Shown piece after piece: positions 59,100-60,221 of a stretch of DNA of 64,000 nt. The position numbers and the translations under genes were made by a program. The stretch's first letter is position 1; each line of letters starts with the position of its first letter. The stretch is taken from contig NZ_JAAGOB010000005.1 in assembly GCF_010550695.1 (NCBI RefSeq), forward strand, positions 121,547-185,546, written 5' to 3'. Origin of the DNA: Phytoactinopolyspora alkaliphila. Its GTDB lineage: Bacteria; Actinomycetota; Actinomycetes; Jiangellales; Jiangellaceae. The notes below the pieces were generated by a model. The model did not search any database. It had not been told where the DNA came from and saw only the letters and a program-made list of their open reading frames with translations.

Positions 59100-59798
59100 T
59101 CATCGCCGTCGTCCCGGGCGGGTGTCGCCAGGCTCACCGTGGCGGGCGTCCGCGTCGGCGTCGCTCAGCCGGGCATCCGGTTCCCTCGGGCGAGCGTCCG
59201 TTTCCGTCGCGCGTGCGTCCGCTCCACGATGCCGCGGGTCGGCGTCGTCGCCGCGCGGCCTGTGGTCGCGCTCGTCGGAGTGGGCCTCGTGCCGGCCGTG
59301 CCGATGCTCATCGATCGCAGCCGTCTCGGTGACGGCCACCGTCGGGCTTGCCATCCCGCCCCCGATCAGGCCTCCGACACCTGCAGCGATCAAACCGATC
59401 AACAGCGAGAGGAACGTCGCCCACAGGGTTCCCGCTCCGAGCTCAGGCAGCGGCGTGGTGAACGTGTCGAACAACCGCAGCGACTGGGGGATCGAGAACG
59501 CGGTCGCGACGACGAGAATCAGCCCCCAGACGAGCACGCCGTGCATCAGGCCGGTTCCCGCGCCGGGTGTGCCGGAAAGACCGCCGGCGATGATCCCGGC
59601 TACAAGCAGCGCGACCACCGCGGTTGCGAACGCGAACCAGTGCAGGTTGTCCGCTATGGCGTCGACGTTCCCGCCCTCGCCCCACGCGACCCAGAGAGAT
59701 GACAGCAGAATCATCAGCGCGAACCCGATGACGGCTCCCGCCAGGACCGCACTCCAGCGTACGAGGCTAGGTCCGATCAAGGGCTCTCTGATTGCCAT
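59100..59798 (-). CDS. four-span membrane protein with charged C-terminal tail
   Basis: The 232-residue protein has four hydrophobic spans: AVLAGAVIGFALMILLSSLW, FAFATAVVALLVAGIIAGG, GVLVWGLILVVATAFSI and FLSLLIGLIAAGVGGLIGGG. A highly charged tail (from ETAAIDEHRHGRHEAHSD to the end, rich in Arg, Asp and His) follows. I do not recognise a family. ATG 59798 follows AAGGAG; the longer frame from 59855 is less likely. It lies convergent to whiB with a 66-bp gap and divergent from the small LexA-box gene. Confidence 0.65.
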   Translation of the reverse strand: MAIREPLIGPSLVRWSAVLAGAVIGFALMILLSSLWVAWGEGGNVDAIADNLHWFAFATAVVALLVAGIIAGGLSGTPGAGTGLMHGVLVWGLILVVATAFSIPQSLRLFDTFTTPLPELGAGTLWATFLSLLIGLIAAGVGGLIGGGMASPTVAVTETAAIDEHRHGRHEAHSDERDHRPRGDDADPRHRGADARATETDARPREPDARLSDADADARHGEPGDTRPGRRR

Positions 59799-59915
59799 GT
59801 CGATCACGCTCCTTCGAAGTTCGCCAGAGCTGATGGAGGCGCAATACCCGTCCAAAATACGAACAAACGGGGACGTTACGGGATCTTAATTGGCTGTCAC
59901 GACTGGCGATCATGC

Positions 59916-59927
59916 GAACATATGTTC
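59916..59927. promoter_or_regulatory. LexA-like SOS box
   Basis: GAACATATGTTC is a perfect 12-bp palindrome. With flanks, GCGAAC-N4-GTTCTA, it matches the mycobacterial/Bacillus-type LexA box TCGAAC-N4-GTTCGA at 10 of 12 fixed positions. TATGTT (59921-59926) inside it could be a -10, so LexA would block transcription. It lies just ahead of the small gene at 59949 and 118 bp upstream of the divergent membrane gene's start. Confidence 0.55.
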
Positions 59928-59948
59928 TACAGTCCCGATATGCGGGGG

Positions 59949-60221
59949 ATGGAGGATCGGGAGCGACCACCACATCTCAAACACGAACAGGCCATACTCA
60001 ACCATCACTGGCCCAGCCGGCCGCGTGACTATGCGCTGCATGAACCAGGGATCGCGGTCCGGGTACGGCTCATCTGGGAACGTGACGGGGAGCAGTTCAT
60101 CGAGGGTGTGGCCCGCCGGTGGGATGCCGACCACGTGTATGTGGAGCTCAAAGACACCAGAAGTCAGGCCAACGGCGTCTGGCTGAAGCCGCAGGACGTC
60201 TACCGCCGCTCACCGGACTAG
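59949..60221 (+). CDS. small basic/acidic protein of unknown function (possible SOS gene)
   Basis: The 90-residue protein has a charged N-terminus (MEDRERPPHLKHEQAI) and a strand-rich core: GIAVRVRLIWERDGEQFIEG, then VARRWDADHVYVELKD and GVWLKPQDVYRRSPD. No family is recognised. No signal peptide or membrane segment is present. Starts at 59922 or 59940 lie within or near the LexA-like box and are less likely than ATG 59949. The SOS box suggests DNA-damage induction. Its stop overlaps the 3' end of the convergent beta-lactamase-like gene by 4 bp. Confidence 0.6.
   Translation: MEDRERPPHLKHEQAILNHHWPSRPRDYALHEPGIAVRVRLIWERDGEQFIEGVARRWDADHVYVELKDTRSQANGVWLKPQDVYRRSPD

Follow-up and report, generated by a model that had tools for sequence, protein, structure and literature searches.

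A predicted LexA-type operator precedes a small gene of an unnamed family in Phytoactinopolyspora alkaliphila and is kept in its Jiangellaceae relatives

We found that a small gene of Phytoactinopolyspora alkaliphila begins shortly behind a predicted LexA-type operator, and the reading of this gene as a LexA-controlled member of an unnamed protein family is supported and well backed by its sequence and that of its relatives. The gene has 93 codons and a stop (positions 59940..60221, forward strand) and is delimited by start-codon geometry, codon-position bias and a predicted fold. It lies in a stretch of 64,000 nucleotides, which we call the window; positions refer to the window unless a contig or locus is named.

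The core of the operator is the palindromic 12-mer GAACATATGTTC at 59916-59927 of the forward strand, and the sequence-only reading, which had reported a perfect palindrome there, was right in both respects. The predicted operator as a whole is the 16-mer GCGAACATATGTTCTA (59914..59929, forward strand), assigned on its conservation in relatives and on its match to 10 of the 12 fixed bases of TCGAAC-N4-GTTCGA, so that the near-consensus SOS-box context claimed earlier also holds. According to the description of the Streptomyces venezuelae LexA regulon in PMC9380542, the consensus in that organism, tCGAAC-N4-GNNCGa, is of the same type. At its 3′ end the window operator merges with a −10 hexamer of the TAnnnT kind, TACAGT (59928..59933, forward strand), the last two bases of the operator being the first two of the hexamer, which confirms the proposed overlap of box and −10. 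The hexamer TGGCGA (59904..59909, forward strand), 18 nt before the −10 and within a partly conserved TGGCGATCA element (59904-59912), is a putative −35. The motif of PafBC-type promoters stands at a spacing of 8 from the −10, and a RecA-independent damage promoter of this type was rejected by eye, as the −10 here follows TGGCGATCA after 15 nt. Divergent from the small gene is a membrane-protein-like open reading frame (59100-59855, reverse strand) with a sub-threshold DUF3792 match; it also adjoins the small gene in the related genome G001. Control of this frame by the same box was considered and dismissed, no −10 being visible by eye on that strand.

Taken by itself, the motif carries little weight. 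The loose pattern GAACNNNNGTTC (GAAC-N4-GTTC) occurs once in the 64,000 nt of the window and is expected 0.84 times from the mean of shuffled sequences, which makes the bare pattern alone uninformative. For a window of which not every gene is annotated, this single occurrence agrees with the earlier statement that no other SOS gene is nearby. Across the genome, TCGAACNNNNGTTCKA with at most one mismatch has 42+46 matches as compared to 22+26 in the control; with an excess of only about twofold, many of these matches are noise and a single site alone is unconvincing. Longer patterns stand out more clearly: the exact 12-mer GAACATATGTTC is found once in the window and not at all in 100 shuffles, and in the 5.5 Mb genome it is found at two places, with none in the control. 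GGCGATCANNNGAACNNNNGTTC with at most three mismatches has 41+35 matches in the genome of P. alkaliphila compared to 7+10 in the control, and its three exact sites there are the window gene, its paralogue on contig C32 and an unrelated small open reading frame on contig C33.

Conservation of the box was examined in relatives picked by the protein alone, with the box sought within 120 nt upstream and defined as at least 9 of the 12 bases, in place. The search gave 32 places in the Jiangellaceae, of which 31 were examined (G018:C1:4079840 was left unscored), and the box is in place in 30 of these 31 copies. The one boxless copy (L092, in G020), which stands outside the 30, is a frame-broken fragment with a score of 9 at the wrong place; a stop falls inside the matched stretch at eight of the 32 places, six of them among the 30. 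A score of at least 10 of 12 is reached by 28 of the 31 copies and by 16 of 1140 control stretches from the same loci (1.4%), and at the looser limit of at least 9 the control stretches pass too in 10.4% of cases. A score of just 9 is seen for two of the 30, and one of these, L070, has a damaged 5′ half-site. The 3′ half-site GTTC is invariant in all 30 boxed copies, with a looser 5′ half, and in every one of them the second base of the −10 is A and the sixth is T; unlike the T, this A also counts towards the box score. At −35 distance, 13 of the 30 have GCGAT among the 12 nt that precede the box on its 5′ side. The box is kept even in copies distantly related to the window protein. Because the copies share descent, the 30 boxed copies do not amount to 30 independent cases.

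The position of the box is also fixed with respect to the start of the gene. An in-frame start codon follows the box after 10 nt in 21 of the 30 copies and after 11 nt in another eight, that is in 29 of the 30, the exception being L089. In the window gene the distance is 10 nt and leads to ATG 59940, which lies six bases past the −10 hexamer and in frame with ATG 59949. The short distance in the relatives points to leaderless mRNAs and to ATG 59940 as the start. We therefore read the gene as probably starting at ATG 59940, with 93 residues, rather than at ATG 59949, with 90, and its mRNA as probably leaderless, beginning at or beside the start codon. The frame itself, proposed earlier as a 90-residue gene, is real as judged from codon-position bias, with a start that was probably placed too far downstream. 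When the gene is aligned with its syntenic counterpart in G001, the fractions of first, second and third codon positions that differ are 0.31, 0.20 and 0.51, and third positions are the most changed in five of five comparisons. This third-position excess indicates that the frame of the small gene is under constraint at the protein level.

The genome has the regulator that such a box calls for, with one match to PF01726 (94.6 bits, cut-off 23.7), and the lexA gene is itself preceded by three LexA-type boxes. The second genomic place of GAACATATGTTC is the very start of a DinB-type (Y-family) polymerase gene (PF00817, E 1e-49). LexA-type boxes also stand before open reading frames that by eye are ImuA-like, DUF222-like and HEPN-like; the ImuA-like frame reaches no Pfam family. 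In view of the boxes at lexA and the dinB-type gene, the fixed position and the conservation in 30 of 31 copies, it is highly improbable that the palindrome arose by chance or serves a different regulator, an explanation that draws on the expected 0.84 occurrences per window and on the modest genome-wide excess of similar-scoring sites. A chance palindrome is rejected by position and conservation, not by the bare motif, and we consider it very probable that LexA uses the box as an operator.

Two further places in the genome were recorded on the way. A perfect LexA-type 16-mer, TCGAACTTATGTTCGA, is found on contig C32 (C32:270871-270886, locus L147), about 100 nt before a 469-residue open reading frame that is DUF222-like by eye. 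On contig C33, a 70-residue frame unrelated to the small gene (C33:216832-217041; L140:9333-9542, reverse strand) has the same promoter plan, with GGCGATCA, the box GAACACATGTTC, GATAGT, 6 nt and ATG. It is matched in three of 21 other Jiangellaceae genomes, with a box in two of the three, one of them perfect.

The family is patchily distributed. Of 60 genomes searched with the protein, 14 had a match, and a profile built from 22 rows detected the family in 16 of the 22 Jiangellaceae genomes and, in a class sample of 393 genomes, in 22, P. alkaliphila being included in each count. The named loci belong to Phytoactinopolyspora, Haloactinopolyspora, Jiangella and one MAG, and P. alkaliphila itself has three diverged copies (the window copy and one each on contigs C31 and C32). 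Outside the Jiangellaceae, the box is absent from all six testable homologues, namely that of Brevibacterium phage AGM1, that of a Brevibacterium plasmid, L016, L099, L100 and L102, where L016, with 9 of 12 bases and both half-sites broken, was counted as boxless; the six do not include L101 (whose contig starts inside the gene), L103 (doubtful), L068, L163 and hit H2. A check of orthologues for the box was suggested together with the original observation, a lack of the box being named as refuting it; inside the family Jiangellaceae this check did not refute the reading, and beyond that family the box is absent from the six homologues. Whereas the operator type is shared with the S. venezuelae LexA regulon, boxed members of the small-gene family were found only in the Jiangellaceae. 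In S. venezuelae many SOS genes are of unknown function, and its plasmid pSVJI1 encodes a hypothetical protein and a DNA polymerase in one operon with a box in front, as reported in the regulon sections of PMC9380542. A literature search returned no LexA study in Jiangella, the single paper containing both words mentioning LexA once; for a nameless family this does not show absence from print.

Next we consider the protein. The window protein has no match in Pfam (best 12.3 bits against a cut-off of 27), nor any family in NCBIfam and PHROGs, in line with the earlier description of a gene of no known family. The best scores of 22 family members are likewise below use, both in Pfam (E 0.0046, fvmRadSAM-pep, three members) and in PHROGs (E 0.0016, phrog_12644, one member), and sequence searches of the PDB gave nothing of weight. 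An AlphaFold2 model (mean pLDDT 87.1, pTM 0.75) has five strands from residue 38 on, and on weak matches we predict an SH3/Tudor-like barrel from about this residue. In Foldseek searches of the PDB the best E was 0.13, with none below 0.1, and barrels of Tudor, retroviral integrase and myosin proteins are numerous among the matches. By VIA, the barrel can be aligned over about residues 32-93 with SH3-like and Tudor barrels (SGF29, PHF1, the C-terminal domain of retroviral integrase) at Z 6.1-6.5, although a Z under 8 may reflect only a common arrangement. Sequence similarity of weight to these barrels is lacking, the scores are weak, and a shared fold shows no function. One viral protein, from Arthrobacter phage Seahorse, matches the fold with E 0.0022.

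All 19 members measured are hydrophilic (GRAVY −0.33 to −1.10), with a net charge that varies in sign, and this disfavours a membrane checkpoint protein. A soluble SOS division inhibitor, which would act like SulA and delay septation during repair, fits the size of the protein and its predicted SOS control, and the weak fold matches include the cell-division regulator ZapC (E 0.29 and 0.69). However, many unrelated barrels in the Foldseek list match at least as well as ZapC, and the Gram-positive division inhibitors DivS, SidA, YneA and SosA are membrane proteins, whereas the small protein is hydrophilic. Three diverged copies in one genome and carriage by prophages would also be odd for a checkpoint, and we regard a division inhibitor as improbable.

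The surroundings of the copies are not fixed: among 41 loci compared, the neighbours of the window copy (WhiB and the membrane protein) are shared only by the G001 copy, and a conserved neighbourhood was therefore rejected. No repair gene adjoins the window copy. Five copies in four genomes of Jiangella (twice in G012, once each in G014, G017 and G018) lie head to head with dnaE2, with a single operator between dnaE2 and the small gene. The dnaE2 partner is complete in G017 (assigned by Pfam) and G018, cut by the contig end both times in G012, and a dnaE2-like remnant by eye in G014; the DnaE2 frames are at L172:5323-8676 (forward strand) and in L173, L189 and L190. The five linked rows form one supported group in the tree (100/99). 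The extra dnaE2 of G012, G017 and G018 is 70-75% identical to those of other genera and 55-57% to the resident dnaE2 of Jiangella, and this closeness to other genera suggests that it arrived jointly with the small gene. The dnaE2 loci L199-L201 were left out, since their flanks are short and their box scores possibly come from the wrong place. In G009, the small gene lies about 0.5 kb behind a dinB-type gene that has a box at its own start, which brings the polymerase-linked copies to six in all. One copy in G002 is about 1.7 kb from an SRAP gene.

The ImuA′-ImuB-DnaE2 mutasome is under SOS control, as the small gene is predicted to be, and one clade of the family stands head to head with an extra DnaE2. 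In contrast, the mutasome proteins have no similarity to the small protein in a Pfam scan, and the DnaE2 link is confined to that clade. The dnaE2 gene of P. alkaliphila (contig C3) is near none of its three copies of the small gene. A DnaE2-like match is present in 21 of the 22 Jiangellaceae genomes and the profile search found no copy of the small gene in six of the 22, which indicates that DnaE2 does not need the small protein in every genome. A QxxLN stretch, which we take to resemble a clamp-binding motif, was rejected as such, since it reads RDVLN in the five dnaE2-linked copies.

Other copies lie in prophage-like surroundings. The C31 copy of P. alkaliphila has an endolysin-like gene about 4 kb away, the C31 copy of G011 has a holin gene about 60 nt away and an endolysin gene one further, the C5 copy of G019 adjoins an integrase-like serine recombinase, one copy of G018 has a resolvase-type recombinase one open reading frame away, the copy at 724 kb in G014 has, about 4 kb away, a protein with a match to a PHROGs family that lacks an assigned function, and the C6 copy of G011 lies in a stretch identical to an IMG/VR viral contig. 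By eye, the prophage rows fall on several branches of the tree, and the C31 prophage copy of G011 pairs with the C3 copy of the same genome (support 96/95). A label test counted the prophage rows as one change, a result that holds only relative to the dnaE2 group, with 16 unlabelled rows left out and the bootstrap unsettled.

Among phages proper, gp29 of Brevibacterium phage AGM1 (L057:5905-6180, hypothetical protein) is a homologue with 49% identity over 55% of the query, and lies two genes from a short integrase and four from an immunity repressor. A single host strain accounts for the 32 phage records that contain homologues of the AGM1 type, and tblastn of the phage collection with the homologue L099 returned Brevibacterium phages only; viral contigs probed with the Jiangella type gave nothing. 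On the Brevibacterium plasmid NZ_CP093444.1 (L058, from 4965, forward strand), the homologue has no annotated gene in the PLSDB table.

These surroundings, together with the integrase and repressor near gp29, favour a phage-derived induction or lysogeny factor under host LexA, which would act on prophage repressors and of which the lone chromosomal copies would be leftovers. LexA-controlled antirepressors exist in Salmonella prophages, as reported in the account of PMC3121763. Against this origin, the window copy and the copies linked to dnaE2 and dinB are outside prophage surroundings (open reading frames judged by eye), the dnaE2-linked copies are open and boxed, and the AGM1 gene, although its protein is homologous, has no LexA box upstream. 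The prophage links make an induction factor our next choice of role, a doubtful one, after damage tolerance, which comes first because of the polymerase links.

Taken together, a regulation account that includes an SOS gene, a LexA operator and a leaderless start is likely. LexA would sit on an operator that covers the promoter spacer and the −10 and would keep the gene off. On DNA damage, RecA stimulates the self-cleavage of LexA, an established pathway, and this would free the promoter; RNA polymerase would then make an mRNA that begins at or next to ATG 59940. The product would be a hydrophilic protein of 93 residues with a small SH3/Tudor-like barrel. As to its role, and here our weighting is a matter of judgement, we tentatively favour an accessory factor in damage tolerance, an adaptor or DNA-binding protein that may work beside the error-prone DnaE2 and DinB and may have been spread by prophages and transfer. 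A more specific version, rather unlikely as it stands, is a small SH3-like adaptor of actinobacterial damage-induced mutagenesis that would travel with extra dnaE2 genes and with prophages, be shared by host and phage, and be controlled by the LexA of the host at a single compact promoter with a leaderless start.

Our results provide 30 LexA-boxed genes, all from a single unnamed protein family of the Jiangellaceae, as a list open to testing. The combined layout of operator, −10 and probable leaderless start is compact and could be used as a search pattern to extend SOS regulons. Since an extra dnaE2 shares the operator of one clade and prophages carry other copies, the family may connect mutagenesis in the host with phage biology.
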